Shown here: piece by piece, positions 13,901 through 50,234 of the stretch
Position numbering within the stretch: position 1 is the stretch's first letter
Layout: every line of letters starts with the position of its first letter
Translations under genes and position numbers: made by a program
Notes under the pieces: model-generated
What the model was told of the DNA's origin: nothing
Databases searched by the model: none
What the model saw: only the letters and a program-made list of their open reading frames with translations
Assembly (NCBI GenBank): GCA_025738555.1
Contig: JAOVFP010000006.1
Span: 3,720,001 to 3,784,000, forward strand
Length of the DNA: 64,000 nucleotides
Reading direction: 5' to 3'
Origin: Cyathus striatus
Lineage: Eukaryota > Basidiomycota > Agaricomycetes > Agaricales > Nidulariaceae

Positions 13901-14495
13901 GCGACGTTATAGGTTACCTACTAATGTGCCATTGGAGGGTAGTAATGGCAGTACTGAGGGACTTGATTTGGCCATCAGTGAAACTTACAGGGGGGAATTC
14001 GTAGAGAATCTTTAGGTTTCTTCATGTTGACCTAGTGGGCTGTTGGCCAGTCTGCGTCGACGTTCAAGCAATGTTCCGCACGCGCTAGCGTCCGACGATC
14101 CAGATTGCGCCATCGAGAACTAGTACATACATCCTAACGTACGCTTCTTTCATGACCTCGCAATGCCCTTAGTCTATCACATATGATATGTGGTTATACA
14201 TAAGCTACGCATAAACAACGAGGCTTTTCTCGAATTATAGTCAGTATTAAGCGCATATTCTACGATAATTTAACAGGTTGCCAACCTTCAACTGCCAACC
14301 TTTTTACTATTATAAGCGTTATCCACGCCTCTCGATGTGGAAATTCTCATAATCGACAAGTTCTATGTCACTCGTTGCTCTCCTATTATCTGATCTGACT
14401 CCTTAGCCTGCCTACAACATGGATCGATCAATCTATCTTAGAATTTTCACATTAGGCATCATCTTATTATTCCAACTATATGTACACGATGCGAA
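10980..14495 (+). repeat. segmental repeat upstream of NLR1 (uninterrupted copy)
   Basis: Matches, in order and orientation, 28,960-29,790 and then 48,430-50,234. Examples: GTCTGGAGTCTGGACTCG (near 11,005 and 28,985), the double TTAGGG motif, the GGGTGCTG...GTTGCTAGGAAG stretch (near 11,905 and 48,515), TCCAGTTCAACCACGCCAAC (12,892 and 49,490), and TTATCTGATCTGACTCCT (14,386 and 50,152). It contains polypyrimidine tracts next to GT-rich steps that look like introns, but no sustained coding frame. This copy acts as the empty site for the 18.6-kb insertion and the 6.5-kb insertion found in the other copy. Confidence 0.8.
11558..11572 (+). repeat. interstitial telomere-like motif
   Basis: TTAGGGTTAGGGTTA inside the repeat. 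The same motif sits at the equivalent place in the other copy (29,519-29,533), so it is part of the repeat rather than a chromosome end. Confidence 0.75.
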
Positions 14496-15050: not shown

Positions 15051-15262
15051 AAGATGATTGGTCTCATGATCGTGCAACGTGCACATCTACATATTTTTAT
15101 CACACTCACTACGCTGTCTGATTACCATGATATTAATGTTCTCCATCAGTGGGTGGGGCCAGTTCAACGTACCAATTAAAAAGATAGCTTAATGAGATTG
15201 AATCCATCCTTTCCCCCATCACTGTGAACCTCAACAATCTAAACTTGAACCTACAAACACTT

Positions 15263-28959: not shown

Positions 28960-29790
28960 TGTTGTTGTGCCATAGTTTTGAACAGTCTGGAGTCTGGACT
29001 CGCCGCTCGACTCCCACATACAAGCTTCTTTGAGATATCTCTTTGTTTCGAATCTCCATCGTACAAAGCCTCTCATAACATCACTTGGTAGTCTCTCTCT
29101 AGTCAGGTTCGAGCCCAGTTCGAACTTTCCACTTGCGACGCGCAACCAGCCTGCAATTTCTTGCAATGGTGTCATACCTCCTTGAAACTTTGCCGCCTCG
29201 CAAACACTACTTCCATCCAGTAACAGGTACGTTGCCCCTTTTTTCTTGCATTCCCTTCTTATAAATATGTTTCCACTTACACTTGCAGAAGATAGCGGAT
29301 CCCACGCCGCACTGGTCTGGCTCATCTGAGCCGTTCGGCAGCACAGAAGCAATTGATACGAGGGTGGGGATACATTGGCTAGTGGCTTAGAACAGAATCA
29401 CCATATGCATTACTAGACACATGCGCAGGGGTACGTTGTTTCTTTCTCTCTTTCCCTCCTTTTCCCACTCCCTTCTCTCTACCTGGTTGTTTGTTCGCGT
29501 TCATCGACATCGTTCACATTAGGGTTAGGGTTATCGCTTGCCCTGCTTCTCATTCCCTTCCTTCCCTTCCCTTCCCTCTCCACCGTCCCTCATATACTTT
29601 CATTTTACTCACTCTTACTTCCCTTCTTTCTTTCGTTGCCCCATTCCACCTTACTAAGATTCATCCATCGCTCACCCCTTCCTAACAGGACGACATTTCT
29701 CTTTACCCTTCGCACGCACTCCAACATCGGGAGAGGGTGGGAGGTGTCGGCAGCCGAACAGCCGACCCTCTAGTACACGACATTGACACA
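28960..29790 (+). repeat. left half of segmental repeat copy 2 (interrupted)
   Basis: Homologous to 10,985-11,870. It stops where the 18.6-kb element begins, and the homology resumes at 48,430. Includes the TTAGGG motif at 29,519-29,533. Confidence 0.8.
29519..29533 (+). repeat. interstitial telomere-like motif
   Basis: TTAGGGTTAGGGTTA at the position equivalent to 11,558-11,572. Confidence 0.75.
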
Positions 29791-30205
29791 CACTTCTGGC
29801 TGCCGACTTTTTTGCCGTTCGCAAAATTCATCCAAATTCGACCTCAATTATTTTAAATATTGACTAAACATTTTGGCTGTCGCAAAATTATCACTATTGG
29901 CTGATGCAAAATCGTAGACAAATGTTACATTTTGTACATATTTTGTATAAATACAAATGATTCTTTTTGTTCTAATTTTAGCTTCATCAAATTAAGTGTC
30001 AAATGTAATGTTGTGAACTTGTTTTGACCTCAAACAAAATTTATTGTTTCGCATGACCGCAAAACCAGTGCAAAAGTCAACATTTTATCTAAGTTTTGCT
30101 TAAAACAAAATGCTTAATTTTCCCAAAAGATTTTGACCTTGGGAAAACCTTACTAAAATCTAAAGTTTTCACTTCAGGAAAACTTAGCGCCCGCTCAGCG
30201 CCCGC
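29791..30205 (+). repeat. left long terminal inverted repeat of the giant element
   Basis: Begins CACTTCTGGCTGCCGACTTT. TGTACATATTTTGTATAAAT and GGGAAAACCTTACTAAAATC are shared with 48,014-48,429 in reverse complement with few differences. Confidence 0.88.
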
Positions 30206-30643
30206 CGACACAGAGGCTAGCGTTGGTCAGCGTCCATTTCTCAGTGTCCCCCAGTGCCTGTCCTCTGTGTCAAGAGGAATTCATTATCTAAATTTTATTA
30301 TTCCTTATGTGTTCACATTTTTATTCAGTTAATGTTTTACATACATGAAGAAGCACAAACATGATCTATATAAATCTTTGCGATGAAGCACTAGTACTAA
30401 TACTTCGGGACAATGAAATAACGGCAATGCTATTCTCCCCCCAAGGTGCGCAAGCGAAATGGCATTCAACACGATTTAGATCAATGAATTCTAGTGCAGA
30501 GAATTCATTGCTATGTAATTTTGCGTGAAGATAAGGGAATGATGCGAATGGATCTCGGCAGATGGCAGGCTTATAGCGCTGGATACCAATAACCACCTTA
30601 AGTGAGCCTTGAAGCTTCAGTTGCAGAATATATTCTAACCGAG

Positions 30644-31464
30644 TGAGGGGTGTTAGCCATTTGGATCATAAAAAGCCCAGGTTTTATGAAAAAGTGATCA
30701 CAAAATCCCTGACTTCCATGATCACTGCTAAAATCTAATGGTATTCATTATTATTAATGAATGTATGAGTGATCAAAGGTGATCATTGGATGTTATAATA
30801 GTGTATGATGGATATTAAAGGGCATATTGACTACTAATGAATACTAATGAATGTGAAAGTGATCATAAGTGATCATGATATGATATAATAGTGTATTATA
30901 ATGTGTAATGACTACTAGTGAATACTAATGGATGTGTAAGTGATCATAAGTGATCATGGTATGTTGTAATAGCATATTATAGTGCATAATGACTACTGGT
31001 GAATACTAATGGATGTGGAAGTGATCATAAGTGATCATGGTATAGTATAATGGTGTATGATAGTGTGTAATGACTACTAGTTAATACTAATGAATGTGGA
31101 AGTGATCATATGTGATCATGATATGTTATAATAGTGTTTTATAGTGCATAATGACTACTGGCAAATACTAATAAATGTAGAAGTGATCATAAGTGATCAT
31201 GGTATGTTATAATAGCATATTATTGTGTGTAATGCTTACTAGTTAATACTAATAAATGTAAAAGTGATTATAAGTGATTATTGTATAAATAATAGAATAT
31301 TAATTTATAAATGAATATAGGAATATCACATTTTCCCACACGTCACACCTGTCACGCTCGTCACATTCGTCACATATGTCACGAGTGTTACGAATGTCAT
31401 GCTCCACATATTTGCCACATATGTAGCATTTGTCATACTTGCCACATTTGTTGTGTATGTCACA
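30644..31464 (+). repeat. left arm of foldback element
   Basis: Inverted partner of 32,119-32,937; contains 81-bp subrepeats from about 30,859 to 31,283. Confidence 0.9.
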
Positions 31465-32118
31465 TTGTAAATGTAAAGCATAACAAGTGTGATATGGGTG
31501 CAAGTATAACATACAGGAAAGGAATGACAAATACAGAAAATATGACATTTGTAACATATAGGGAAGAGGTGATATTTGTGACAGATGAGACTGATAAGTG
31601 AAACATATGTGACAAGTAGTAAAATATGTGACATATGTGACGAGCGTGACAGGTGTGACGAATCTGACAAGCGTGACATGTAAGAATGTGATATGCATGA
31701 CAAATGTGACATACATAACAGGTGTGACATGTATAACAAGTGTGACAAGTGTGACAAATGCTACATACATGACATATACAACAGGTGTGACAAATATGAG
31801 GAGCGTGATATTCGTACTGTGACACGTGTGACAAATGTGACATACATGAGACGTGTGACATGCATAATAAATGTGACATATGTGACGTTCATAAGTGTGA
31901 CATGTGACATGCATAACATGTGTGACATACCTGACATACCTGACAAATACGACAGGTGTGACAGGTGTGACATACATGAGATGTTTGACATACATGACAA
32001 ATATGACAGGCATGACATATGTGACATACACAACAAGTGTGACAAGTATGACAAATGCAACATATGTGACATACGTGACAGGTGTGACAAATGTGACGTA
32101 CATAACAGGTGTGACATA
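31465..32118 (+). repeat. 9-bp-period satellite core of the foldback element
   Basis: From about 31,600 the sequence is built from TGTGACATA / TGTGACAAA / CATGACATA nonamers. Because the period is a multiple of three, several frames on both strands stay open and give Cys-Asp-rich or Val-Thr-rich pseudo-proteins. I do not regard these as genes. Confidence 0.8.
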
Positions 32119-32937
32119 TGTGACATACACAACAAATGTGGCAAGTATGACAAATGCTACATATGTGGCAAATATGTGGAGCATGACATTCGTAACACTC
32201 GTGACATATGTGACGAATGTGACGAGCGTGACAGGTGTGACGTGTGGGAAAATGTGATATTCCTATATTCATTTATAAATTAATATTCTATTATTTATAC
32301 AATAATCACTTATAATCACTTTTACATTTATTAGTATTAACTAGTAAGCATTACACACAATAATATGCTATTATAACATACCATGATCACTTATGATCAC
32401 TTCTACATTTATTAGTATTTGCCAGTAGTCATTATGCACTATAAAACACTATTATAACATATCATGATCACATATGATCACTTCCACATTCATTAGTATT
32501 AACTAGTAGTCATTACACACTATCATACACCATTATACTATACCATGATCACTTATGATCACTTCCACATCCATTAGTATTCACCAGTAGTCATTATGCA
32601 CTATAATATGCTATTACAACATACCATGATCACTTATGATCACTTACACATCCATTAGTATTCACTAGTAGTCATTACACATTATAATACACTATTATAT
32701 CATATCATGATCACTTATGATCACTTTCACATTCATTAGTATTCATTAGTAGTCAATATGCCCTTTAATATCCATCATACACTATTATAACATCCAATGA
32801 TCACCTTTGATCACTCATACATTCATTAATAATAATGAATACCATTAGATTTTAGCAGTGATCATGGAAGTCAGGGATTTTGTGATCACTTTTTCATAAA
32901 ACCTGGGCTTTTTATGATCCAAATTGGCTGACACTTA
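32119..32937 (-). repeat. right arm of foldback element
   Basis: Inverted partner of 30,644-31,464, with the same subrepeats in reverse order. Confidence 0.9.
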
Positions 32938-35900
32938 TGACCGAGCGGGTAGTAACATGCCGCCTATCGACTCAGAGCGAATGAGGATACAACTGTTACC
33001 CAAATGATGTGATGATATTGAGTAGGTGATACCCTGAACTGTCAAAAGAGAGAGGAAACTGCATTTGTTCGGAACATCAGCACCGAAAGTTGAAGTTAGG
33101 GCCGCATGTAAATGAGCAGGTAGATTCCGCAATTGTCTTTGGTCATTGGGAATAGCATCGTCATCAGTGGTATCCAAGTTTTCCCAGCTCAACATGTCCG
33201 TAATCAGCGTATTTCTAACTTGAGGATTGACCAGTTTCTCGAAAATTGCCTTACAATTCTGTATGGCTTCCGGGCATTCAGATTTAAGTATTAACTTTCG
33301 TAAGTTGGCTGACTTTACAAAAGTTTTGGAGATTGTTGCCTCAAGCTCTCCTTTCGATTCAAATATCAGCTTTAGCCTTAAAGGATCGCAAACTAATGAG
33401 TTATTTTACCTTGTCGATAATTATTGGGAATTCTTTGAAGCATTCCAATGACCCTCTCGAAAGGGAATGTCCACCACGAGTGGACAGGTCCATAGAGTGT
33501 AAGATATTCGTGGAGGTGAAGTGACATGTGATGGTTGGGATGAAAAACGTATTCAGGAAAGAGTTCTCGAATTCCCGTAAGATACAATTGCATATATTGC
33601 AGATAGAGGTCAGCATTGGTATGAGATGTGACACGAGAAGTCACAATCGATATTGCAGAAATTAATGAAGCCGAAACTTCAAGGACCTTACGTCGCTTAT
33701 TCATTCTAAGATCTTCACCGGTACTACCATGTAACATGCGAGCAAGCGAAATTGGAAGGAAAGTCGTTCCCAGAACGCGCCATTGATCTGCCTTCAACTT
33801 TCCATGACTTGGAGATCCTAGGTTCAAAGGCACCGATGTCAACCAGGATGGGGACACTATCGCCTGAATGTCAGAACGTATATCGTCAATGTCATCCTGG
33901 GTAAGAACACAGCCAGGTTTGTCATTTTTATTCTCTAGTCTTTCGATTTGCCCCATCCGCTGTAATACTATCAGCCACTAACATCAATTTTCGAAAAGAT
34001 ATAGTACGTACCCAAGCTATTAGTCTTTTTACCCAGTCTCGCTTTCGCATTCGGAGCCGTTCGTCTGGTAGCGAGGGACAGTGAAGCGTGTCGCATGCAA
34101 GCTGAAGTACAGGCCCATGAAGTCCCTCAAATCGTTTTTGCCAAATAACCCGGCCTTCAGTAGTCTTGAGTTCTTCATTGATCGGATGACCTAACCATTT
34201 AATTAACTTTTTTGCGCTCTTTTGTTCTGAAGAAGAGTAACTGGCAAATGAATTGATAGAGAGCGGTACAGTAACTACGGGGCTCTCCTCTAATCTGTCC
34301 TCTTTCTTTAGCGTAATACCTAGTATACCTTGGAAATGTTCCTGTATCAATCCAAGGAAGAGATTGTGCATAGCGTCGATAACAATAAAATGGGACGGAT
34401 CGAAATATGGCAGCCGTAGCAATTCAGACCATCGGACGCCGGTACGATCCACAACTCCTTGTCTTTCCTTGTGGGTTTCCGCATTCTGGTACTCTGTCGC
34501 AGCTTCCCGGCATTCCCTAGCTGTACGCCGCTTCCATGTATGGTATTCCGTATTTCCATAACCATGCGATCTCCGCATGCAATGGCATATCGCACAAAAT
34601 TTATTATGAGAACTAGCCGCAAATCCTCCGGTTTTACGAGCGGCTGGAAGGTCACATACAACACACACAAGGGCACACCTCGCAGTTCTTCCATGTTGAC
34701 ACCTATTTGTTCGAGAGAAACGAACACCAGGTTCCCAAAATTCTAGGAACTTGTCAACTACGGGTGTTAAATAGTGGTTCAATGCTGTCAATGGTGGCTC
34801 GTTAGGCCCGGGAATTACACCAGCCAAGAATATATTCTCAGGTTTATAACGTATATCCGGAGGGAGGTTCAAACAAACAAGAGATATGAGGCCTATGGAC
34901 CTTTTCTTCCCAGCTTGCTTGTTAGTAAGTGGATTAAAGAAATCAACGCAGAGTGAAAATGCAAGGCGAGCTTCATCACCACCATCCTTGAAGAGTTTCC
35001 CATCTGGACCGATGAATTGCTGAAGAATTTTCCCATCGAATATGTCATGTAACTCCTTGTCAGCCCTCTCGTTCAACCACGCATTGTCCATCATCTTTTC
35101 AATTCCAGGTTGAGACAGAAGCCCGCCAACCCAGTCTTTGAAATCATACGCGACAAATGGTTTTATAGGTACAAAAACCTCCTTCCCATTGACGATGCGC
35201 GGCTTCAGCAGCTCCTGTTTACAGCGGGGACCATTGTGGAATTGACGATGACTACAAAGCTTAGGATAAATTGCAGTTGGTGGATCACCCTCGAACGATG
35301 GTTTATAGGTACGATGGCAATTTGGACTAGGACAAACTGCATATACAATGCTTTTTCCTTCTAGATTCAATTCTTCTTCCGGCCTACGGCCGTCTACCGG
35401 GAAATCATACAAAAGTTTTTGATCACGAGGTGTAAGCGGCGATGATGAAGGTCCATATCCACGCATTAGACATAGCTGCACAATGTATTTAATCATTGTG
35501 AACATAAAAATGCCTCCTCTACGCCCTACATTCAAGATGACATGGCATGCCGCAACCATGAAGATCGAAAGTTGGTGGATTGAGTCTGTACCAGCAAGAA
35601 GCGGCTGAAAGTGATGATCTGTTATAATAATAAAAGTATGTAAGTATGTATGTATTATCAACTACTGTATGGAATGACGTACCGTTGTTGTATTCGATCG
35701 TTACACTGGCTGACTGCTGTTTTACGGTCCCAACTATCCAACGAACATTTGCGTCTCGTAGCAGATCAATAGATCTGTCAATTTTTTTCATAATCCCAAG
35801 TTTCTCTTGAACCGCTAATGAATCACTGAACATGCAGCCAACAATATCTGACTTTAGGGCTTTACATCGCTCTTGAAGATATGCCAATGGGAATTTGGTG

Positions 35901-36295
35901 CCATCGTTACTAGATTTACATGAAATCTGGGCCAGTTCAGCGGTTACTTCGTCAGCCAACAAATGGGCTGATAAACGAAACTCTGATAATTTTTTAGGAT
36001 CGCATTGTGCTTTGGTGTTGGTATCTGCATAATGAGTGCGAACGAGAGCTTCATTCCCCAAAAGATCTGCCTGTTTAGATCTGGACCATATGCGACTGCC
36101 ATTGGTTTGAGGTGAGCTGTCATCAAAGAGTGTAGTCACAGCAATACGTGAGGCTAGTTCCTCGATCTCATCCTCCACAGAGGCATCGGTAGCCGTGTCA
36201 ATAGCGAGACTAGCTAGCTCCTTTTTGCGATGGGAGTGCTCAACCATGGCATCCTGCCTGCGTCCGCCACATTTTCTACAGAAGCATTTCACCAT

Positions 36296-37423
36296 CGGTC
36301 AAAGACGTGGTGCTGAGGATTGGAAAGTGTTTCAAAGCATGTAGCTGCAAGGAGGAATGAAGAGTGTCTTGGGATTACCAGAACACGTAGCTGCGAAAAG
36401 GATGGATAGTTGTTTCACGATTACCGAAATACGTAGAGGCTGCGAAGAGGAATGTATAATGTCCCAGAATGACCGAAATGGAACGGATATCGTTTGGGTG
36501 TATGTGTGGGGGGGGTAGGCTTAATATACGGGTAAAGACAATAATGAACTGTTATAGTATGCACCCTAGCTACCAAAAGCGCTACAAGGCCAGCTGAGCG
36601 CACACCGACGAGTACAATAATAGCTGTATTTGCATAGCAACCCGATGTGAGCGGGTGCACTTCCAATGCAACAGGTATACTCTCTTGTAATATGTAGACA
36701 TTATAGTGTGCATCGAATGCTGACAGCAGCTTGAAATCGAGATGGAGACTTGGAGCTCTGATTCTGAAGGAGGGAATGAGTATGGTATGTTGGGTTTACC
36801 AAAGTACTTGCAAGCATTTGACATCGGGAAGCGTAGTGAGAGTGTGAGTTGGAGCGGAATTACTTTGGGATTACCAGAGTATTGAATTGCTAAGCTAAGT
36901 GGAGAGTTACATGCTTCGGGACTACCGTTGCATGGATGCAGAAGATAGCGAACGGGTGAGCTGAAAGACAGGCGTTGCCGTTACTATTGATTTGTTTACC
37001 ATAGACTTCGAGTTGTTTACCATAGACTTCGAGTTGTTTACCATAAACTTCGAGTTGTTTACAACGCCGTTTGATATAAACAAAGATAATCAATAACCTG
37101 TCGGCGCGTCAGCGCGTCGACTTTCTGGACTCAAACATACTCTGGCAATCACCCAAGCGTACCCTGGTAATCCCAGAGTAACTTAATCATTCCACTTAAA
37201 CATACTCTGGTAATCCCATAGTACTTCTTTGTATTTCCAGCCTTCAACGCAACTCCTTCAATGGCTCGTACTCTGGTATCTGTTTTCTAGCTTTCAGCAC
37301 AATTCGTATTCTGGTAATCCCATGATACTACCTTGCCACGTCCCCCCTTCAACTCAACATAACGCGACACAATAAAACTTCAGATATACCACTTTTACAC
37401 CATGTACTACCTATCTAACCTAT
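36296..37423. other. intergenic with clustered GGGATTACC dyads and a 21-bp tandem repeat
   Basis: GGATTACC-type motifs on the plus strand near 36,370, 36,415, 36,785 (as GGGTTTACC), 36,868 and 36,912 (as GGGACTACC). The inverse GGTAATCCC occurs near 37,172, 37,212 and 37,315. Between the two clusters lie three and a half copies of TTGTTTACCATAGACTTCGAG (36,992-37,062). The block separates the transposase start from the end of the next minus-strand gene. Confidence 0.65.
36992..37062 (+). repeat. 21-bp tandem repeat, about 3.4 copies
   Basis: TTGTTTACCATAGACTTCGA units start at 36,992, 37,013, 37,034 and 37,055, with one base change in the third. Confidence 0.85.
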
Positions 37424-39934
37424 CTAATGATTCACTTGTGCTATCTCTGGCAGCTCTATCTCATTCTGTGCATCAAGGTACTTCTTATCGTGGTTGGAAA
37501 GACTGTTGTACCACGTTTCATCATAAAAGTTCCTGGGGAGACCTGGTATCGCTGTACGTGTGCTCGCGGTGGCTCCAACATGACGCTTACGAGCCCTGGG
37601 GGGGTTACTGGGACGTTTCTCTGCGTATGCAGTGGTAAAATTGTGGTCCTTGTCGATTATACTGAGATAGTTTACGAGGGCATTGGACCTCCAAGCGCGC
37701 TTCTTGATCCAGAACTTCCGACCTTCTGATTGATCGTCATCTGTCTCATCGGAGCTCATGCCTCCTGCACTGAGGTCTGCCACCAAGTTGTACAAAAAGT
37801 CCCAGAGAGGATCTACAGTTTTATCCTGACGTGTTCGGTTTCCATCTGCAATTTCCATCCTGAGATTGAACAACTTCTAAGGGTAAGTAGAATGTTACAT
37901 CTGATACAACTCTTTGACTTACATGGTTTCTCCTGGTACAGGGTCTCTGCATTTCCTTGCGCCGTACTCGTTGACGGGAAACACGTTGGACACGCCTCGC
38001 CTCTGATTCTCCTGGACGAGGCTTTGTGCTATCCATAAACTTCTTCAGGCGTATCAAACGCTGGAAGAAAAGCTCGTAGATCTGATCTTCATCATCATCC
38101 GTTGCACAGAGCTGGGGATACCTATGTTTGAATTCGACTTTAAATTGCGACGCTAATTCGTGGTTCCATTCGCAGTCAACTTTTTCGAAGAACGGATGGA
38201 AGGGCGTCCCAGTTGGCCCTTTGCCTAAACCTTTCGAGTATTGCATTACGCTATCCATGTTGGCTTGTTGAATATTTACACAATCCGCGTCCTTCTCAAT
38301 ATCCAGTAGCAGATTCATCAATGGCCATACATATGACTGGGCTCATGCAATTAGTATATTTTACGATGGCAGTACAGGACCCTTACCAAAATTTCTGTCT
38401 GTTCAGGATCAATGGTCCTCTTTGGGGGGGTTTTAAACTTCGGTGATGGCTTCAATGGTGCCCGTTGTGGGCGGCGCATGCCACATGAGATATGCGCTTT
38501 GATCTCCCTCATCTCATTAAGCAGTGCTTGCAAGGTCGGACCAGTATCCTCGGATCCGCCAGAAGGCTGAGCTTCTGGGGACCCGGAAGTATTGTTGGTG
38601 TGTATGCGAGAAGGCCCAGCCACTGAAGTCCCTCGTGTCTGCCATTGTGGACCTGCACCTCCCCTAGGCCTCGGCATCCGTATTGGCGGTGGAACATTAG
38701 GAGTGTCCTCGTCATCACTCAAATTAGCAGTGTCCTCGTCATCGCTCAATTCTTGTATTGCTTTTGTTTTCCCTTTCCCATCAGCAGCGTGAGGAGCATG
38801 TAGAGGTGGTTCAACCTCGTTATTGGCCATCTCTGCATCACGAACGGCCACTTCTGGTTGCTCCCCAACGTCTCGTTGGGTCGTAGGTGGCTGCTCTGCT
38901 TCAATACGCCTAGATTCTGCTGCTTCTCGCTGCCTCTCTGCCATCTCACTTTCGAACATTTCTTGGAGTTGTTGAAGGCTCCGTTCCAAGGTCCCAATGC
39001 GCGTGTCTCGCTCGGTGATGGTTTTCTCCAGCTAGTACACTTTAGTGGCAGCTCAATAATGAATTATCATATAACTTACTTCGAGTTTAAGTTCCTGCAC
39101 AGTAGAATCGCGCTCATTTAACACTCTATTCTTTTCGGCATCGGAAGCTGCAAGCTGAAGACTTTCTGTTAGTCTTACTCTATATTGTTTACATCTAATA
39201 ACGCACCTTAATTGTCAACGTATTAAAAGCTGCATCTTTCAGCGATTGTGCATTTTCATGCTCACGCTGGATATCTTGCAGCTGTTAAGCACATCAGATT
39301 TATTTACTACGTATAATTGAGAATTACGAACTTTCTGTTCCAACTCCGCAATCTTCGTAGCGGTCACCAAGGGTGCCTGCTCTATAAGTTGTACTTTCCT
39401 TGCCCCCTCTACATCTCGCCGACGCCGGATCGATACTGTTGATGATGCAGGAAGCGGGCCTATCAAAGCCAGAGAAGATGGGCCTGAAGCGGTGCTCTCT
39501 TGTGTGCGTGCACGCTTTAAAATACCCTGCGATATTATAGGCTGGGGAACTGGTGGGGCTAATGCGACAAGACTAGAGGTTGATACCTCGGTACCTGTCA
39601 AGGAAATGGGTCCAGCTAAGGGATCAGGCTGGTTTATGAACGTGGGTGGTACAGTAGTGCCAGCTGTAACTTGGCTGGGATCGTGTACCATAGACTGATT
39701 TGAAGCGGTAGGGGGTACTTGTGGGGGTACTCTGGGTACTTGTGCAGCAATGGCGGGGAATGCTCCTGACGCTTGTGTGCCTGCACCTAATGGATTGAGA
39801 CCCAGAGGCACTGGTATGGCAGTGGTGGGGAATGCTCCTGGCACTTGTACGCCCAAGGGATCAAGACCCATAGGATTGTCCATATCAACATGAAGTGCAT
39901 CTACAACTGCGTTCTCTTCTTCCATCTGCACCAC
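37424..39934 (-). CDS. agaricomycete-specific coiled-coil protein, cargo gene
   Basis: Function unknown. Starts MVQMEEENAVVDALHVDMDN. An N-terminal Pro/Ala/Gly-rich region is followed by a heptad coiled coil spread over short exons: KIAELEQKV, LQDIQREHENAQSLKDAAF, LAASDAEKNRVLNERDSTV, then RIGTLERSLQQLQEMFESEM. Next come acidic low-complexity stretches (LSDDEDTANLSDDEDT), KPSPKFKTPPKRTIDPEQTE, and a C-terminal part with FFQRLIRLKKFMDSTKPRPG, RRKEMQRPCTRR, KRAWRSNALVNYLSIIDK and GLPRNFYDETWYNSL. The C-terminal blocks resemble a family that I recall as frequent in Rhizoctonia and relatives. One intron at 37,922-37,877 (46 nt) joins TRRNH to KLFNLRMEIAD in frame; at least four more introns are needed upstream. 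It lies next to the Plavaka transposase on the same strand. Confidence 0.7.
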
Positions 39935-40057
39935 ACTTCAGTTGGATATATTAGAAGATAAAATATGACACATACAATATGGTCGTTATTGTCGGTCATA
40001 GCAGCAATGTACGAAGTAGAGAACAGAGATGTGTAATGCTATAGGTTTAAACTTAGG

Positions 40058-40456
40058 ATGTTGGGAGGCTTGAGGCCGACATTCACCCAACATTTATACT
40101 GGTCATACTATTGTCTATGTAACCAATGCTTCAATAAACAATTACACTCCTGTCGTTCATGCAAGGATACTATACCTATGGGTGAAATGGAGCACTCTTT
40201 GTGTATGGATCACGCTATGTCTAATGGGTGTATCGGGTGTCATGGGAGCGCATCACTGTCAGTGTTGATATACGACAAAATCGGAAGAATTTTTCGAATG
40301 CTAGCTAAAGCTTTAGGTTGTTGGTCAGTCAAGAAAGTAAGGAAAATCAAGAAACCTGGGACTCTTGAATTTGATATGCCTACGCTGGATAACTTACTGG
40401 TGTGCCAGCGGATAGCCACTCGCATGCACCTTGCAATGTCTGCCTGCGTAATGTGA
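40058..40456 (+). CDS. possible Cys-rich zinc-binding small protein
   Basis: A 132-codon open frame. Residues 20-60 hold paired cysteines (CLCNQC, CRSC, C, then CIGC) with His residues between them, a spacing compatible with a treble-clef or RING/LIM-like zinc site. No signal peptide is seen. It is followed by a basic stretch, KKVRKIKKPG. No family recognised. The start is uncertain and it may be a chance frame, but the cysteine pattern and its place among cargo genes argue mildly for a real gene. Confidence 0.35.
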   Translation: MLGGLRPTFTQHLYWSYYCLCNQCFNKQLHSCRSCKDTIPMGEMEHSLCMDHAMSNGCIGCHGSASLSVLIYDKIGRIFRMLAKALGCWSVKKVRKIKKPGTLEFDMPTLDNLLVCQRIATRMHLAMSACVM

Positions 40457-40610
40457 ATGTACTCCAAACAATTCCTTGGCATTCATTTCCAGTAACTAGT
40501 GGCGCACGCCAATCTCCTTTAGTGCCATGTTATTCGATTATTGTATGCCTAGCTTTTATTGTGTATCTACATACATAAATGAAATGCTTCAAGTTTCCGA
40601 TCCTACAGCA

Positions 40611-41213
40611 ATGCCCAATACCGCTACAAATTTCTTCTCGTCTTCATCTAAGAAAGTAGGTCAGCGATCCCGCATTTGCAGCACCTGCTGATAACTATAA
40701 ATAGGACAAATACCTCTCTCTTCGAGGCCGCATTTATTACTCCGGAGAGCGTCGGCACCCTGAATATGTCAACGTCCCTACTATTGAAGCCAAGGATTAT
40801 TGTAACGCAAGGTTTCCAGTAGTGGAGCGATTGATGGGAGGGAGGTCTGTACAGCGACATATCCATGACTGTGCTGCAACTGTTCTAGATGGCCGGAGAG
40901 AGCACCGCTTCCTTATCTTCTGTAAAAATCACAAGTACCTTCCAATCAATGACATAGTGACAGGCCGGCATACCATTCCGTGGAAAGGTGATATTGTCGT
41001 TATGCGTTTGGGGAAGAAGAACCCTTCGGCAGTGGTTAATATGCGGAGTAATGATGCCAATTTAGCTGACTTCCTTGTTTGCAAGTAAGTCTGTTAGCGC
41101 CTTCTTTTCATACTATTTTAGCTAACCTCATTAATCTCTGCAGATTTGTGATGAGAACACGCCAGCGTAGATCATTCAGATTTCCACAAAATATGTTATT
41201 TCGACGTCGCTAG
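40611..41213 (+). CDS. small agaricomycete-type protein (164 aa), cargo gene
   Basis: Exons 40611-40655, 40705-41084 and 41144-41213 (45, 380 and 70 nt) total 495 nt, an exact multiple of three. Introns are GT-AG (49 and 59 nt). The protein begins MPNTATNFFSSSSKKDKYLS, continues with GRIYYSGERRHPEYVNVP and GRREHRFLIFCKNHKYLPIN, and ends in a basic tail, MRTRQRRSFRFPQNMLFRRR. No domain is recognised. The Tyr/Arg-rich centre and WKGDIVVMRLGKKN suggest a compact beta fold, and the tail could bind nucleic acid (inference). It is divergent from the coiled-coil gene to its left. Confidence 0.65.
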
Positions 41214-41472
41214 GCCTTGTAATAGTGTACAATTGTTGATTTAGTAGATGACTTCTGGATAATATACGTGTTTAAAATTGTTGGTGTTATGAAGTTGTGA
41301 AATCATGAGTATGAGGGGCATATAAACCGTATCTTATGTGAGTAAAACATAAAATGCAAAAATTAGCAATGACTGGCAATCCATTCAGTATGTGAGCCGA
41401 CAGGTTTAATAAAATTAATTGTGTTTAGGTAGCTCCAGTACATCGTGTCAAATGTACTACTAAAAGTTCGGT

Positions 41473-43240
41473 TCAACTGCTAAATTTAAATCCCCATTTA
41501 GATTTCTCCACTGCATTGTCCTCGATCTCAACGTAGTTGTCATCGTTATGTTCATGGTTAATAGGGCCAAACTGTGTATTACTAGTAGGGTTCTTGTGGT
41601 CATTCAGAGATGCGTGCACCCTACCAACAACATTGCGTAGAGCCTATCAGATGAAGTGAGACGAATTAAATATTGGAAGCATAGTCGAAGCTTACCTCGT
41701 GCACATAACCCTTCCAAACATCAGCGGTGAGCCAGAAGAGAAAAAGGATAGCCAAGAAGTTCAACGTGTTCATGAAGCTCGGTATACCAATAGTACTCAT
41801 TTTATTTGATTGGTCCTTCTCAGCACATGGTAAGCAGGCTGTAATGATCATTTGCTTCAAAACTCACCCGTTTTTTCCACACATAAATAGTGGGCTTTTT
41901 ATCCGAGGAACTACTTGCGATAAGCTTGCGATCTGAGGAAGAAATCGCCTGAAAATGACAGAGCTCAGCATTTAGCATTTATCCGTATAATATGCTACTT
42001 ACATCAATGGCCTGAATGCGCGATCTCCAGCCTCCTGGATGTAATGTCTGTATCTTTGACGAAGATAAAGTGGAGTACAAGTGTAGCCTCCCATTGTCAC
42101 TGCCACACAATGCCAAAGCTCCATCTTCTGCCAAAGCAGCTCCTTTAACGTATAGATGCTTATGCTTCGTGGGTACTTCGAAATTTCGTGCAGGCGATGC
42201 CTTAGAAATCTGGTATAGGTCAAAGCTACCATTCATGTTATCTATTAACAATGTCTTTGTGCTTTCACAAATGGCGGCACTTCCACTAACCGATATCGGA
42301 TCAGTACTTTCATGGATGGTGTGCGAATAGTACTCACATTGGAGACTTCAGTACTTTGTGCCAGTCCTCCGTTCCGGAATCAGAGAGGCGGCAGCGACTT
42401 AAACTAGAGTGAGAACCAATATAACACACAAATAGCTGATACTCACATCTCTCCAGTTTCTAGGAAAAAGACCAGGATCGTTTTGTAGCTGTCATAGAAA
42501 TGGACCGCTCGAGGTATAATGGGCCCGGTTGAATCACTACTAAAATCCTTGATCCACAATGTTGTTAAAGAGCCTGAAATACATTAATTAAACGATTAAA
42601 ATATGTAAAAGTCACTTACCATCCCTATGGACAGAACAGAGCTTCACCTTCCCCGTGTGGCTTGAAGCGGCTAACCGCTGGTGGACTGGATCTATTGAGA
42701 TGCTTTCCACCGGCTCATTTACGGTGAAAAGTCGAGTGTTAGACAACTCATGGAATGCTGCCTGATAGATAAAAAATAAGTTATAAAGAATATCGCTTAA
42801 AAATTGTGTCGTACCGTTGCATTTGATCGTCTGTATATGAGGGCCAAACCCCGTCCTGTACTGAAAGCGAGAGTTGTATCGCTGCCATCGCTACTGACCA
42901 GGAACCATTTAATGCTTGTAATTTGGCCCCACCGACCACAATGATCTTCTAGAGCCTGTTGGCATAATTTTTTACCCACGTCCCAGATGCGGAGAGTTTC
43001 GTCGTCACCTAAATGGTAACTTAGTATGAAGAATAGGAGAAAACGAAGACCTAAGACGCACCGCCGCTCGCAAGGAGTGTGGCACTGTGACTAAATGCTA
43101 CACAATTGACTGGTCCTTTTGAGCCTCGCAGGCGAGCTTCGATTACATAGCTCTGTTAAAAGTCTCGCGTCAGTACAGTCTTCAATAAATGACCTAAAAC
43201 GTACCTCTGTGTTTCTCTTGAGGAAGCTTGGAATGTACAT
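41473..43240 (-). CDS. WD40-repeat protein with C-terminal transmembrane segment, cargo gene
   Basis: Starts MYIPSFLKRNTE at 43,240, then SYVIEARLRGSKGPVNCVAF (first WD blade), LASGG joined to DDETLRIWDVG, and further degenerate blades (ITSIKWFLVSSDGSDTTLAF, SISIDPVHQRLAASSHTGKV, YVKGAALAEDGALALCGSDN, then SDKKPTIYVWKKR). After the propeller, a probable single transmembrane segment (LNFLAILFLFWLTADVW, about 41,730-41,780) leads to an acidic tail ending FKFSS with stop at 41,473-41,475. About eight small GT-AG introns are needed. Blade count and exact exon borders are approximate. Likely a membrane-tethered beta-propeller; partner unknown. The WD sequences are diverse, unlike the homogenised NLR arrays. 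Confidence 0.7.
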
Positions 43241-43572
43241 AGGGTATAGCTCGAGTGGTGGCTACGTGGATGTTGAATGTGTTGATGTTGGATGTTTCAT
43301 GAAAGTCAGCCAGCATCATATAAGCAAGGTTACTTATTGTGTTCAGATCTACCTTGATAATAACAATATTACAATTATCTATTGGCAAGCGAACTATTGT
43401 GTTAACAGCATGACAGATAGGCGCCTTAATAGAGAGTTAGCATGGCGACCGACGAAAATAGCACAAAGTGAAGCTGTTACAATGACAGTATATTGTCTGT
43501 TTCCTCGTATTTTGTGCAGGCTATCGAATATAAGGAGTGTGCTACGAATGAACAGAAGTAACATTCCTTGTT

Positions 43573-44414
43573 ATGTCCCTCCCCTCGATTAAGATCCATC
43601 TTCCACTTACAACCGAGCACATTCACTTCGAGCACATTCGGCAGAGTTCACGACCAATGGTCACAAACTGTATCGATTTCGGACATGGCTTTACCCAAAG
43701 ACCAAAACCCACTGTTAGGTTTGATATCCCTCCTGCTCCAGTTGTAGCGAATGGCGAAACCAAGAACCAAGCCATAGATTTCGACGACGATGCTTCGATG
43801 TCTTCTCTAACCGACATCGACTCCGAGTCCGATACCGACGACTCTCTGATTCCAAGCCCAGGAGAGCGAACAATCAAGAAGCCACCAGGGCAAGTCAACA
43901 GGCCTAACTCGGGGGGCTTCAACCTGAAGGATGCATTAAATTGGAAATGAGAAGAGTACGAGAAATTTCAGGTAAGTAATGGTCTACATTTATGCGAAGT
44001 TATACTCACATACCTTTAGGCTTATGTTTACAAATTGGCAAATGCGAAGCTTGACACTACACAGTGCTTAACACAACAAGAGTCCCAAAAACTAGAAACG
44101 GTTTATCGAGCGGTAAGCATTTAAGTCATGTAAAGTACTGCTAATTCTGACATGGCATAGGTTGAGCGTAAGTTCAACAAGCTTCGTATCTACGAGGATC
44201 ACTGGCCGATCCGTGAGTTGTTAAAATCGCATCTGAAGACTAAATCGGCGGCAGCCCGCAATGAAAGTAATAATGTGAGATCTATTATGAAAAATTTGGT
44301 AAGTAGTATTCATATCCGTTTACAACATACTTACAGAGTCGATAGGTGAAATCAAACACTAAGAGATTAGCGGAGAAAAGTCCTGCTAGTCCCGCTTCGT
44401 CCAGTAATGTGTAG
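43573..44414 (+). pseudogene. agaricomycete hypothetical protein with in-frame stop, cargo gene
   Basis: Exon 1 contains TVRFDIPPAPVVANGE and an acidic run, SLTDIDSESDTDDSLIPSPG, then NLKDALNWK, TGA (43,947-43,949) and EEYEKFQ before a GTAAGT donor. Later exons give YKLANAKLDTTQCLTQQESQ, VERKFNKLRIYEDHWPIREL and a basic end, KSNTKRLAEKSPASP, stopping at 44,412-44,414. Continuity of the reading frame around the TGA suggests a CGA-to-TGA nonsense change. The start could be 43,573 or the Met at 43,657. The family is recalled as common and uncharacterised in Rhizoctonia-like genomes. Confidence 0.6.
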
Positions 44415-44469
44415 AGTGCATACTTGTAGTTTGTCGTAGCGTATACCATTAATGAGTGATTTTTCTGTA

Positions 44470-44910
44470 AGCATGGGATCTAAGTAATGCCTTGGGAGTA
44501 GACAGGTATTGTGATTACCGAGATATTACTGGGAGAAAGGAATATATGCCTTGGGATTACCAGGGCATGTTTTATGGAAGTCGTATTGTAATGTCTTGGG
44601 ATTACCAAGGCATTACTAGTGGAAAGGGGGTCATGTCTTGGGTTTACCAAGGCATGTTATGTTGAGGTGGGGGAATGAGGAACGGGATTGGTTGCGATCG
44701 CAGAACAATAAGAGTGATGCTGTGACGTTAAGACAATACACGCTCAAACATGGAACAACAAAATTTTATCTCATCAGACGCGTCGCTCGGTCTCCTCATA
44801 CTACCACCATTAAACTACGCATTTGCCCTGGTATACCCACAGCAATAGCAATCCCTTCCCCTCATTAATCATTCTACACAATTGCCTTGGTATACCCACA
44901 GCAATAACAC
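44470..44910. other. second cluster of GGGATTACC dyads
   Basis: GCCTTGGGATTACCAGGGCA near 44,550, TCTTGGGATTACCAAGGCAT near 44,592 and TCTTGGGTTTACCAAGGCAT near 44,635 point rightward; CCTTGGTATACCC-type copies near 44,827 and 44,883 are of the inverse kind. The arrangement mirrors that at 36.3-37.3 kb. Confidence 0.65.
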
Positions 44911-44946
44911 TCCCTTCCCCTCTACACAACACAACACTCTAGCACA

Positions 44947-45170
44947 TGCCCACCGCGCTCTCTCTAGCTTCTGTGCCCACTCTCCATCGCACGCTCACCG
45001 TGTTCTCTCTGGCTTCCGTGCCCACTCTCTATCGCACGCCCACCACGCTCTCTCTGACTTCCGTGCCCACTCTCTATCGCATGCCCACCACGCTCTCTCT
45101 GACTTCCGTGCCCACTCTCTATCGCACACCCACCGCGCTCTCTCTGACTTCAGTGTCCGCACTCCCAGTC
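44947..45170 (+). repeat. 45-bp minisatellite upstream of the 45.3-kb gene
   Basis: About five copies of a 45-bp unit containing CTCTCTCTGACTTCCGTGCC then CACTCTCTATCGCAC. The unit length is a multiple of three, so all frames remain open. It ends just before a GTAAGT (45,209) to CCCCAG (45,269) intron-like stretch that precedes the ATG of the next gene, so it may lie in a transcribed leader. Confidence 0.8.
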
Positions 45171-45272
45171 ACACTATCTACTCCCACTGCCCGCGTTCAT
45201 TAGCTTCCGTAAGTCTTCCTCGCCGTTGTTACACTAGATTTAGATCGCTAATCAAAGTTCCATCCCCAGGAC

Positions 45273-47909
45273 ATGTCCAGTCCAGCCTATCCTCCGATCG
45301 ATCATTCAAAGGGTCGTGCAGTCAAAGATGAAGACATGGTGTATTATTCGCCAAACGCTTCTCATAACATTGATATCCCACCCGAGTTCAACCCCAATCA
45401 CTATCTCTTCCGAAGTGATGCCATCCTCAAAGACATCTACCAGACGCCTATTTGGTGGTCAGATCCCTATGGCTGGATATCGTTTGTCCCCTGCACGCCA
45501 TCCTTCACCGGGATATTTTCTTGCCTTGGTGGGGTTCCGCGGATTGTATATACTAGTCAAGATGAGGCTCGTGATGTCAGCCAGGGTCAGACTAGCGAGG
45601 GTCAGGCTAGTTCACTATCGTATGGGCTGGATGACGCAGTGATGCGAGAATGGACCGGATTAGAGTCCCATCTCATTTGTACGTTCAAACAACTTACCGT
45701 GAAATATGGCAAGCTTGCCATTGCCCCTCCGCCCCCATCCTTCGCTGGCTATAAATGACTACACCGGTCCAGAGAGATCGCACGAAGATGTGCTGAACGT
45801 TCACGCCAGTGGTTCGTTATGTGGATGGGAATTCTCTCATACGTGATCGCCTACATCGAGTATAATGCCAATCGCTCCCGTTGCTCCAATGCATCCCAGC
45901 CAGTCCCTAGCTGGTATACGTACCTTGCTAGTTGTAGCATTCCTGAAACATGGCTCAATGGGATGCTTTCATCCACAATATACTCGTTTTCCCCATTTTG
46001 CCCTCGCGCTGGTGTTTTAGTGCTACCCAGTGAAATTCAAGGGACTCGTTGCCCAAATTACACTTTCTTCCTCGACTTTTCTGTTCCGTACTGGTATCTG
46101 TGGGGAGCTTATGAATGTCGCCGTATCCCCGACTCGCAGTTCTTAAGGGCTCTGGCTCCTCCACTTTCTATTGTGAAGAACGACGGTTCCGTTACTTTCA
46201 GGCCTGATACCAAGGTTTCACCAATCATTTGGAGCGAGCCATTAACCACTCAGTCTGTCTCTCGTATGACTCCGCCACCCTCTCATCCCCCGCATCCTCC
46301 TTCATCCAATGCAAATTCTAGTGCAAAGCCTGCCTGGAAAGCATTTCTCGAATCGCGCGAAGCGCATTATGAGGCTAGGCGTCGAATGGAGACAGATGTG
46401 CAACGTCAAGTTCGCATAAATCGTGAACGAGATCGAGGTTATGTTCATGCATGGGTTTATGAGTGGCAGCGGGATGGTGATGACTACGTCAGAGTACGAG
46501 TTCACTCTAAATATGAGAAGGAGCTGGTGTTCGAACAGTTTAGTGAGCAGCAAATGGTGTATAATGCGTACGACAACGAGTGGGACTTATGCTATGAATT
46601 TGGACCTGATGCGGAATCAGATGAAGTAGAAGAGGATGATTATCCGGAGACTGAATATGAGCAGTTCCGTTCCGACCATTTCCAAGCAACCACCGATTTT
46701 GAGCATGTCCCCCCTCCGACCCAAATTGAAGCTGATGATTCGGACCAACATGCAGATGAGTACGAGTGTGAAGGGGACTATGTTTCCATTTACACTCTGA
46801 AATATATGTATGGGTTTACTCCTGGGGCCGCATTCCATCCAGGTCATGTTGAATATAATTGGGAGCATTCCATGATGGCATTAGGCTATATCGCCGAAGT
46901 TACCCAACCTTCTCATGTTGATGATATAATTCCAATCATCCACTTGGCTGGTCCACTCTCATATGGCTACAGTCCACGTCTTGAACTATGGGATCTTCGC
47001 CCCGAAAACCGCCTACATCGACACATTGTAAGCCATTGTCGCATCGTAAAACTTTGGGACGTATACCTTGTCATTCCACCTTCTTCCAGCAGAGATGATT
47101 GGTTTCCATGGACTTTTGGTGCTAAAACAGCTCGAGATGTTCTCTATGCCTGCCGCCTTCTGACTCATATAGATAGCATGAGCATTTACCAGGTGGCCCG
47201 GGAGTTTCTCGCTAGAGGAATTCCATTCCATACCTTCAATGTGTCACGTACCCCTACCCATGTTCATTTGGACACCATAGCTGTGGCTGACTTTCGCCTC
47301 TCAGGCTATAGGTTCAGCTTGAATGACTATGCCTCGTACCTACAAAGACATGCAGCATTTCTTTCATCTCCTCGAGGGCGTGCAGCATTACTGATGGGAG
47401 GGATTGTTGGCCGCCTTGCACGTGAGCACGTGAGCTTAGATGGGGTGCTCCAAGGTCCATCATCCACCGTTACCAATCAACGTATTGGTGTAAAATATGT
47501 GAATCGGTCTGGCCTGGAATTCTGCGATGATGCACTGACTGAAGATGAGATGGATATAATATGTGGCGCATATCGTTGTTATACAGGTAAGTCATACTTT
47601 GGTAATTGTAATTGTAGCTATTGCTGATATTGAGTAGGGAACAGGAATCAGATTGCTGTGCGCTCTTGGTGGCCACTTCCCAAGCACTGGAGGAAGGATA
47701 GCAATGGAATGAACTGGGGGTATTGGACGCCTTGGAATGAGGTTTGGTACAGGGGGCGACTGGAGGAATTAGAACAGCTTGGACGACCTCTGACTGGTAC
47801 GGAATGGCGGTCAAAGCTGAAGTCCAGCCCTTATTCACGTACACTTGTGCAAACAGTGGAATCTGAGTCGCTACGATACCTTGAGAACTATATTGATGCT
47901 GCAAATTAG
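45273..47909 (+). pseudogene. large agaricomycete hypothetical protein with in-frame stop, cargo gene
   Basis: Exons 45273-47586 and 47638-47909 (2314 and 272 nt) sum to 862 codons. The GT-AG intron is 51 nt. A TGA at 45,756-45,758 interrupts an otherwise continuous frame between PPPPSFAGYK and LHRSREIARRCAERSRQWFV. Family blocks follow: MWMGILSYVIAYIEYNANRS, ETWLNGMLSS, WYLWGAYECRR, a basic helical stretch EARRRMETDVQRQVRINRER, HAWVYEWQRDGDDYVRVRV, an acidic region (DAESDEVEEDDYPETEYEQF), and C-terminal WPLPKHWRKDSNGMNWGYW. This resembles a widespread uncharacterised basidiomycete protein. The stop fits a CGA-to-TGA change. Function unknown. Confidence 0.7.
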
Positions 47910-48013
47910 TAACACACTGTATATTTGTATTAAATGTATATAATAAACAATATATTGTGCCATTCATTTGGATACGCTGATGGACGCTGAGGATGGATGC
48001 TGGCGTCCTTGCC

Positions 48014-48429
48014 AGCGGGCGCTGAGCGCGTGCTAAGTTTTCCTGAAGTGAAAACTTTAGATTTTAGTAAGGTTTTCCCAAGGTCAAAATCTTTTGGGAA
48101 AATTAAGCATTTTGTTTTAAGCAAAACTTAGATAAAATGTTGACTTTTGCACTGGTTTTGCGGTCACGCGAAACAATAAATTTTGTGTGAGGTCAAAACA
48201 AGTTCACAACATTACATTTGACACTTAATTTGATGAAGCTAAAATTAGAACAAAAAGAATCATTTGTATTTATACAAAATATGTACAAAATGTAACATTT
48301 GTCTACGATTTTGCATCAGCCAATAGTAATAATTTTGCAACAGCCAAAATGTTTAGTCAATATTTAAAATAATTGAGGTCGAATTTGGATGAATTTTGCG
48401 AATGGCAAAAAAGTCGGCAGCCAGGAGTG
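48014..48429 (-). repeat. right long terminal inverted repeat of the giant element
   Basis: Reverse complement of 29,791-30,205, ending ...GTCGGCAGCCAGGAGTG. Inner GC-rich subrepeats (GGCGCTGAGCG) occur on both sides just inside the arms. Confidence 0.88.
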
Positions 48430-50234
48430 ACGACAGGCGTATGCAGTCAGCCTTCGGAGGAACCATCGTGCGCTTGGCTGGCGAATCGATATGAGCATAC
48501 CTGCGAATGCTGGGACGGGTGCTGCTGTTAGGAAAGAAAATGTACATCAGCGTGATGGGTACAGATGGGTCATGGGCAGAAAGTGTAAGCATACCTTGTC
48601 TCTTAACCATTCTCCACCCTCTTTGTCTCTGTTCTTCTGCCATCCACAAGCCTTTATCTCCTTGTTCTTTTTTCCTTCCTCCTTCCCCTTTCGTAACGAA
48701 TTAACGCCCTCTTCAGCTCACGCGCCATGGACCCACCCGTCGATTTCACACACGTACGTCGTACGCTGTGCTGTGTACGCGCATTGACATCAGGCACTGA
48801 GAAAACAGCACGAAAGGAACTAGGGTTCGTATCGGATGGAGAAGGAGGGTGAGTTGTTTTCTATTCTCCTTCATCCACCCCTTCCTTTAACGTACTGAAT
48901 GAAGCCCTCTCCAGCTCACTCACATCAATCCACCCATCAAGTATGCACGCTTGTTGCGCAAGGTACGATTGTGGACTTATACATGCACGAGGCACTGTAT
49001 GCAGCCAGCAGGAGGCTCAAGACGAATGTTGCATTCCTATGGGATATCCCTTGTACGAGGAGGAGGGGAGGGAAGATGGATAGTGAGTTCTTACTCCGTT
49101 GGTGTATGAGTTGGGGTCGTGTCTTGCACTGGGGATGTGTATAAGAGCAGCCTTGGTGCGGGTGGTTGCGGCAATTGAATGGTGCTCGTGCTCGTCCGCG
49201 AGGAAGGGGGGAGAGTTGAATCATTTGCAGACGATTGCGTGCCTTGCGCTAGGGTGCCGATGGGGATGGGGACGGGTGATAGCTCGACACTGATGCAGAG
49301 CGTGTGGACGGTCATGGAGTATGCCTATTGCATGTTCTTTAACGTCTACGTGAGGCTGGACTGGAGGTGGCGGTGCGGCGTTTGAGCGGTGCTCGTGCTC
49401 GTGCAGGTTCTTCCCTTCGTTCTGTTGCGCTCTCCCTCTCCTGGCCCTTCGTGTCCTTCCCCTTTATTCACGAGGCTAACGAACTATCTCCAGTTCAACC
49501 ACGCCAACTTTCTACCGTTCGTACGACCTTAGCGGCTATGGTACTCCCCAGGTAGACTGGGCGTATGGACGTGGTGGGAGAACGAGATAGGAGAATTGGA
49601 TTTTTGGTCTAGGCAGACTGGAAAATGTGAAGCTTAAAGGTGTGTTTCGTCAATCGTATTCTTTAATTCGTATGGTTGTGGTCTCGTTCTACTGGAGTGG
49701 CCCATTCTCTCTTAGGCATACTTCGTTTATTATGTTTCATTCATCTTGTTTCTCGCACATACTTTCTTTCTCCCCTTGTCGTTCCCCCTTGTTTTCCTCC
49801 TCTCTTCGTTCATTTCTTTTGTCGTTCCTCCCTTTCCCTTTTGTTCGTATGGGTCCTCCAAGTCTGTTCATAAACCATACATTCTTCCTTCCTCATATGT
49901 TACTTGCTTATCTTCATAACGCTGAAGCTCACGACCCGATGTCAGTTATTAAAGACATCTGCACTGAGAGATTTCATTTGACCATCATAATGTAAACAGT
50001 AAACTCTTTCACAGTCTTGAGGTATCTTCATGTTTAGCAACCTAGTGGAGTGTTTCAAGTGTTTTACTATTAAGTACATATGTTATTCATACTTCTTGTC
50101 CGACCATGTGGAATATCTCACAATTGACATCTATGTGACTCCTTTCTCTCCGATTATCTGATCTGACTCCTAAGCCTGCCTACAATGTGGGTCGATCAAT
50201 CCATCTTGGAATTTTCATTCTAGACATTACTGTA
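48430..50234 (+). repeat. right half of segmental repeat copy 2
   Basis: Continues the homology to copy 1 (about 11,880-14,475) beyond the giant element, and ends at the TA where the next transposon is inserted. Contains intron-like modules at about 48,700 and 48,905 of the type seen at 26-28 kb. No supported coding gene. Confidence 0.8.

Follow-up and report, generated by a model that had tools for sequence, protein, structure and literature searches.

The question raised by this locus is whether an 18.6-kb block of fungal DNA, which is bounded by inverted repeats and contains a transposase gene together with several further genes, is a transposon with a gene set of its own or a carrier of genes taken from its host. 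The block (hereafter E1) occupies positions 29791..48429 of a 64,000-nucleotide stretch of the Cyathus striatus genome (the window, C6:3720001-3784000; labels such as C1 and C6 denote contigs of the same genome, which comprises 107.45 Mb in 24 contigs). A first-pass annotation of the window had described it as a giant CACT-ended Plavaka element with cargo genes, comparable in concept to Starships. Our results lead us, with good confidence, to a different reading. E1 is probably an EnSpm/CACTA transposon of 16.3 kb with 431-nt ends, present in four copies with both ends, which was likely mobilized by the tnp2-type transposase that it is predicted to encode and whose five further genes likely serve the element itself.

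The inverted arms of E1 (29791-30221 and 47999-48429) are 431 nt long and 97% complementary, and thus slightly exceed the near-identical repeats of about 415 bp that had initially been recognized at the borders of the block. The predicted CACT-type ends were confirmed, as CACT..AGTG termini were found in all four copies that have both ends (E1 and the copies E2, E3, and E4 described below). Each E1 end contains seven GCAAAA motifs compared with about 1.9 expected, and none of 500 shuffles reached this number for the motif, which was picked post hoc. Within the block, a foldback sequence of about 2.3 kb (Table 1) is composed of 81-nt and 9-nt repeats, has 100% complementary arms, and is missing from E2, E3, and E4. 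Since this sequence is a later nested insertion, E1 proper measures about 16.3 kb rather than the 18.6 kb of the whole span. E2 holds a separate nested insertion of 5 kb, whose ends resemble those of the foldback.

The 415-bp arm was searched against the whole genome. As scores were computed for 40 of 100 first-look candidates, the match counts are lower bounds. At least 57 matches were obtained, of which 22 were longer and 35 had a length of about 296 nt or less. This search, which had been suggested for finding additional intact pairs that enclose the same genes, revealed three further giant elements with two ends: E2 (C6:5999642-6020931), E3 (C7:2392671-2407574), and E4 (C18:2417775-2442875). 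All three carry the interior of E1. With nested insertions set aside, the identity of their cores to E1 was 98.5% for E2 (16.2 kb aligned), 97.0% for E3 (14.8 kb), and 92.7% for E4 (16.1 kb). E3 lacks about 1.45 kb (from ~40894) and thus misses part of genes 3 and 4. The 35 shorter matches belong to a palindromic family resembling miniature inverted-repeat transposable elements (MITEs; 296 + 55 + 296 bp, ~647 bp) at 18 or more sites, 17 of which had both arms among the matches listed. These palindromes are likely non-autonomous followers of the giant element. The concern that the repeats might occur mostly alone as a small MITE family was therefore justified insofar as such a family exists, yet large gene-bearing pairs occur as well. 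Facing pairs among the 22 longer matches also yielded E5 (6.2 kb) and E6 (7.6 kb), smaller elements that have the ends of E1 at 85–87% identity, contain none of its interior, and possess no reading frame longer than 175 amino acids. Broken or partial relatives were found at C2:8028768, around C2:2222066-2238112, and at C4:2867889-2874091, and remnants at C2:2365587, C4:5558514, and C4:5779452. The two remnants on C4 share a nearly identical 20-bp flank in opposite orientation and probably represent one insertion that was duplicated afterwards.

A second subfamily follows the same gene plan. Its copies on C22, C5, C11, and C1 contain all six genes in the order and with the relative strands seen in E1. 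In the matched pieces, to which all identities between the subfamilies refer, the transposases were 76–81% identical (one piece 72%), gene 2 47–67% (N-terminal exon 32%, with matches confined to C22 and C11), gene 3 54–58%, the WD40 gene (gene 4) 45–78%, gene 5 45–64%, and gene 6 48–57% (one short piece 71%). Hand calculation based on the E1 spacing placed both C5 ends, as well as the C22 end on the transposase side, to within 25 bp. The other C22 end is truncated. The inverted repeats of the C5 and C22 copies are about 69% alike to those of E1, and the C5 copy also has CACT..AGTG termini. One C5 end retains GCAAAA at four positions, and the other contains three motifs, a number reached by 24 of 500 shuffles. 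Apart from the gap in E3, the six-gene order is constant in the eight copies compared.

Two of the extra genes also accompany distant transposases. The C-terminal domain of gene 2 has 38 distant matches. A distant tnp2 transposase (30–42% identical) is found no farther than 35 kb from 29 of them and no farther than 10 kb from 19, and all of the latter are on its strand and upstream of it. Distant WD40 matches occur within 30 kb of a transposase match in 12 of 17 cases, at 10 different transposases, and within 20 kb of a gene-2 match in 12 of 17 cases. Because the gene order is fixed in eight copies and because gene 2 and the WD40 gene accompany distant tnp2 transposases, the extra genes look like an old set that belongs to the element. 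Relatives of gene 6 were located within 30 kb of a tnp2 match at 12 of 43 sites; among the 18 sites with distant gene-6 relatives, 5 had a KDZ transposase no more than 25 kb away. KDZ transposases with a distant gene-6 relative 11–20 kb away are located at C3:4642180, C2:5818680, C16:2867100, C1:4164966, and C12:1517226. We tentatively propose that EnSpm elements of mushrooms may depend on an ancient multi-protein machine, consisting of the transposase, a TNPA-like gene 2, the WD40 protein, and further partners, with parts shared with unrelated KDZ transposons; such sharing within one genome, itself a tentative idea, would parallel the situation of the TET/JBP genes. Three further gene-6 relatives (47–52% identity; C13:1633737, C17:1383259, and C6:5052829) lie at a distance of 11.6–13.7 kb from copies of the repeat that E1 interrupts and possibly belong to another kind of element.

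These data bear directly on the proposed likeness to Starships, which have a tyrosine recombinase captain and a variable set of accessory genes. As a giant fungal element with genes besides the mobility gene, E1 resembles them, and its large size and WD40 protein would suit a carrier whose extra genes were picked up from the host and mainly benefit the fungus. The 15 gene-6 relatives with 45–70% identity outside the giant copies point in the same direction, as none of them has a tnp2 match in a range of 30 kb or a KDZ match in a range of 25 kb, and one lies within 25 kb of a Plavaka match (at 23.5 kb, about chance level). However, E1 differs from Starships in its tnp2-type transposase, its long terminal inverted repeats, and its fixed gene set: two subfamilies have the same six genes in identical order, and gene 2 and the WD40 gene go with distant transposases, too. 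Moreover, a Pfam scan of 17 element frames revealed no tyrosine recombinase, although single exons could escape detection. The cargo role was thus not borne out, and we consider a Starship-like carrier improbable. Eight Starships are reported in the basidiomycete Tremella fuciformis in the available text of PMC13066641.

The class of the element was assessed from its transposase and termini. Transposase_21 (PF02992) was detected in the frame 33928-35661 (E 9e-14; 51.6 bits versus a cut-off of 28.6), and DUF4218 exceeded its cut-off in the adjoining transposase frame (33393-33977). No match to a solved structure was obtained for the transposase frame at E values up to 1. According to the available text of PMC12730594, fungal EnSpm elements have CAC..GTG termini and 3-bp target duplications, whereas Plavaka elements end in TGT..ACA or CATCA..TGATG. 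The features tested in E1, namely the Transposase_21 domain, the CACT..AGTG ends, and 3-bp duplications, fit EnSpm/CACTA. The initial assignment to Plavaka finds some basis in a match to the Plavaka domain PF18759 in the E1 transposase, which at 21.1 bits remains under the cut-off of 26.3, and in the abundance of Plavaka transposases in the same genome. This assignment did not hold: the Transposase_21 score lies far above that of the Plavaka domain, the termini and duplications are not of the Plavaka type, and the C6 copies of the element were not among the 150 Plavaka matches listed, the last being a weak point as 123 of 269 candidates were scored. Hence, a Plavaka element is very unlikely.

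The proposal that the block was inserted as a unit was borne out by uninterrupted paralogous sites elsewhere in the genome. All three other two-ended copies are flanked by perfect 3-bp target duplications (E2, TTA; E3, TAT; E4, TAT), as are E5 (TCA) and the C5 copy of the second subfamily (TGG). Four of six inspected palindromes also showed a perfect 3-bp duplication, and the other two had one end off the inspected place. The immediate flanks of E1 disagree (ACA versus ACG). When these flanks were joined and searched, 6 of 18 matches crossed the junction without interruption. The best-covered empty sites (of 408 bp) were C2:5950745 (86%, 1-406), C6:3991439 (82%, 1-405), C4:2918092 (74%, 3-403), and C2:5955924 (87%, 1-363). 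In these four aligned sites, CTCTAGTAC runs directly into the flank on the right side (three with ACGA, one with GCGA). The E1 site reads CTCTAGTAC-ACG-ACATTGACACA followed by the CACT end, and ACG is present beyond the opposite end. E1 thus has a duplicated ACG and an 11-bp filler on its left side (or, alternatively, ACGAC and 9 bp). A CpG change as the cause of the unequal ACA/ACG flanks was considered and rejected after the empty sites had revealed the filler. The empty sites are direct evidence that the block entered as a single piece. The flanks of E1 are indeed two halves of one repeat, as had been noted, but the copy in the window (10,980-14,495) offers little help: it is mostly 68–72% alike, gave no alignment across the junction, and was rejected as an empty site. 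Although MITE-like palindromes with related ends occur at 18 or more sites, and the C4 remnant pair with its common flank shows that duplication does occur, a segmental duplication, or host DNA fortuitously caught between two end-sharing MITEs, is extremely improbable because the four copies differ in their flanks, three of the four have their own perfect 3-bp duplication, uninterrupted paralogues of the occupied site exist, and the block contains its own transposase.

Table 1 Features of E1 in the window. Gene models are reading frames.
Feature	Position	Strand	Basis or remark
Left target duplication copy, ACG	29777..29779	.	Alignment against four paralogous empty sites; alternative reading: ACGAC + 9 bp
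Filler of 11 bp that separates the target duplication from the element end	29780..29790	.	Missing from four aligned paralogous empty sites
Left terminal inverted repeat, begins CACTTCTGGCTGCCGAC; seven GCAAAA/TTTTGC motifs	29791..30221	+	
Later nested foldback insertion, foreign to the original element	30644..32939	.	Arms 807 nt, target duplication ACCGAG
tnp2/EnSpm-type transposase gene, several frames	32935..36298	-	Pfam and frames; outermost frames by position only
Gene 2, coiled-coil-like basic protein (by eye)	37424..39937	-	C-terminal domain also found upstream of distant tnp2 transposases
Gene 3, conserved, main conserved exon; start perhaps near 40037	40705..41088	+	Without Pfam match
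Gene 4, WD40 protein encoded by several exons; hydrophobic tail predicted near 41700	41666..43119	-	Weak WD40 matches
Gene 5, conserved protein, no known family	43573..44349	+	
Gene 6, large conserved protein without Pfam match	45252..47909	+	
Right terminal inverted repeat, terminates in CAGGAGTG	47999..48429	-	
Right target duplication copy, ACG	48430..48432	.	

The first-pass annotation had correctly recognized a transposase and several further genes in the block, which number about five (Table 1). Its "WD40-membrane protein" corresponds to gene 4, for which the WD40 part is real, albeit with weak Pfam matches, and the membrane part amounts to a predicted hydrophobic stretch beyond the last WD40 blade. 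The exon pattern of gene 4 is common to E1 and the C11 copy. Genes 2, 3, 5, and 6 had no Pfam match in the frames scanned. Five database relatives were found for the gene-6 frame, the best being a hypothetical protein of Cyathus striatus with 91% identity, and a structure model of this frame was too poor to be informative, with a mean predicted local distance difference test score (pLDDT) of 31.9. Gene 2 had one database relative, also a Cyathus striatus hypothetical protein (59% identity over 38% of the query), and a database search with that relative returned the query itself as the sole match.

The differences between the copies indicate how the element changes once it has been inserted. 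Transitions account for 94%, 97%, and 88% of the differences of E1 from E2, E3, and E4, respectively, and are strongly enriched at CpG. The observed/expected ratio of CpG was 0.82 in E1, 0.78 in E2, 0.51 in E3, and 0.14 in E4. Inserted copies decay by CpG-biased transitions, and this CpG decay suggests that the host methylates element copies. In the E1–E4 comparison, ratios of nonsynonymous to synonymous substitution rates (dN/dS) of about 0.3–0.9 in the main frames were considered as a sign of selection and rejected, as a redistribution control gave similar values for neutral CpG-biased change in all 12 frames. Inserted copies thus decay neutrally or nearly so. In this comparison, each of the 12 frames had fewer stop codons than the neutral mean, with no single frame unusual, relative to a control that expects too many stops as it starts from E1 and not from the ancestor.

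The comparison between the subfamilies gave a different picture. The WD40 exons of E1 and the C11 copy (264 codons) showed a nucleotide identity of 65–75%, a dN of 0.146, a saturated dS, and no stops, whereas the sequence outside the named WD40 exons was 59.5% alike with 181 gap columns. The dN/dS ratio was 0.45 for gene 3 (125 codons), 0.36 and 0.30 for two exons of gene 2 (160 and 116 codons), and 0.21 for the 160 C-terminal codons of gene 6 (compared with the C1 copy). The third codon position was the most diverged in each of genes 2, 3, and 6. Four of the five extra genes (genes 2, 3, 4, and, in part, 6) are therefore under codon-level constraint between the subfamilies.

A mode of action can be outlined from these observations. 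The encoded tnp2 transposase would bind and cut the CACT ends, and the element would move by cut-and-paste. TNPA is a component of maize En/Spm, and by analogy gene 2, which lies upstream of the transposase gene, likely encodes a TNPA-like partner, which perhaps binds the GCAAAA motifs that recur in the long ends. The WD40 protein and the products of genes 3, 5, and 6 may be helpers in transposition, regulation, or escape from CpG methylation, and methylation of CpG sites by the host would give such helper genes something to counter. After insertion, the copies decay through CpG-biased transitions.

Several observations weigh against this interpretation of E1 as a transposon served by its own six genes. 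The redistribution control revealed no purifying selection on amino acids between E1 and E4 in any of the 12 frames. Gene 6 of E1 contains one in-frame stop (45756-45758), which is not found in E2, E3, and E4, and the transposase genes of these three copies contain stops. The constraint seen between the subfamilies could partly stem from a service to the host, and gene 2 could be transcribed together with the transposase as a single unit. The left target duplication of E1 is separated from the element end by 11 bp. Furthermore, 19 of the 38 distant gene-2 matches and 5 of the 17 distant WD40 matches have no transposase in range, and 31 of the 43 gene-6 sites are not near a tnp2 match. The chance of co-location is about 1–4% per site. 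As the distant sites go back to a small number of families, co-location probabilities calculated over all sites overstate independence and are too small.

The nearest precedent is found in the red alga Chondrus crispus, where enlarged EnSpm/CACTA elements of 16–20 kb with 4–5 open reading frames were reported (Kojima et al. 2013, cited in the available text of PMC6431247). They have in common with E1 the superfamily, the size range, and open reading frames beyond the usual one or two. They belong to another host kingdom. Fungal EnSpm and Plavaka elements that bear TET/JBP genes also belong to the CMC group and carry a gene besides the transposase, and the EnSpm members share the termini and duplication length described above (available text of PMC12730594). 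E1 differs from them in its five other genes, with no TET/JBP domain in the 17 frames scanned, and neither "WD40" nor "Cyathus" occurs in the main text of that paper. In Cryptococcus, the mobile CACTA element CNIRT6 has a CACTG end motif and one described transposase gene; it is a basidiomycete CACTA element like E1, and the available text of PMC12810828 mentions no six-gene set. At the level of titles and opening abstracts, we found neither a description of a six-gene EnSpm element in mushrooms nor a paper on transposable elements of Cyathus. E1 is hence new within a known kind, as multi-gene EnSpm elements of similar size have already been reported from a red alga. Our results show that a CACTA-type transposon in a mushroom can retain the same six genes through long divergence and can insert all of them as one unit, which sets such elements apart from carriers of host cargo of the Starship type. 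Several mushroom "hypothetical proteins" can now be assigned to a transposon, and it becomes testable which proteins beyond the transposase are required by large eukaryotic DNA transposons.

The window also contains other repeated or mobile sequences. Two genes of the NLR type with NACHT (NPHP3_N) and WD40 parts, located at 15188-19231 and 57230-61305, are 82% alike; the first has 14 WD40 stretches (in 129-nt units) and the second 16, and the two parts of these genes lie in separate frames. At its right edge (63913-64000), a sequence that matches the Plavaka domain and contains stops starts inside the window and continues beyond it (C6:3783913-3784404). On the minus strand at 237-2657, frames with Tc5-type helix-turn-helix and DDE_1 domains likely represent a mariner/pogo-like transposase in pieces.

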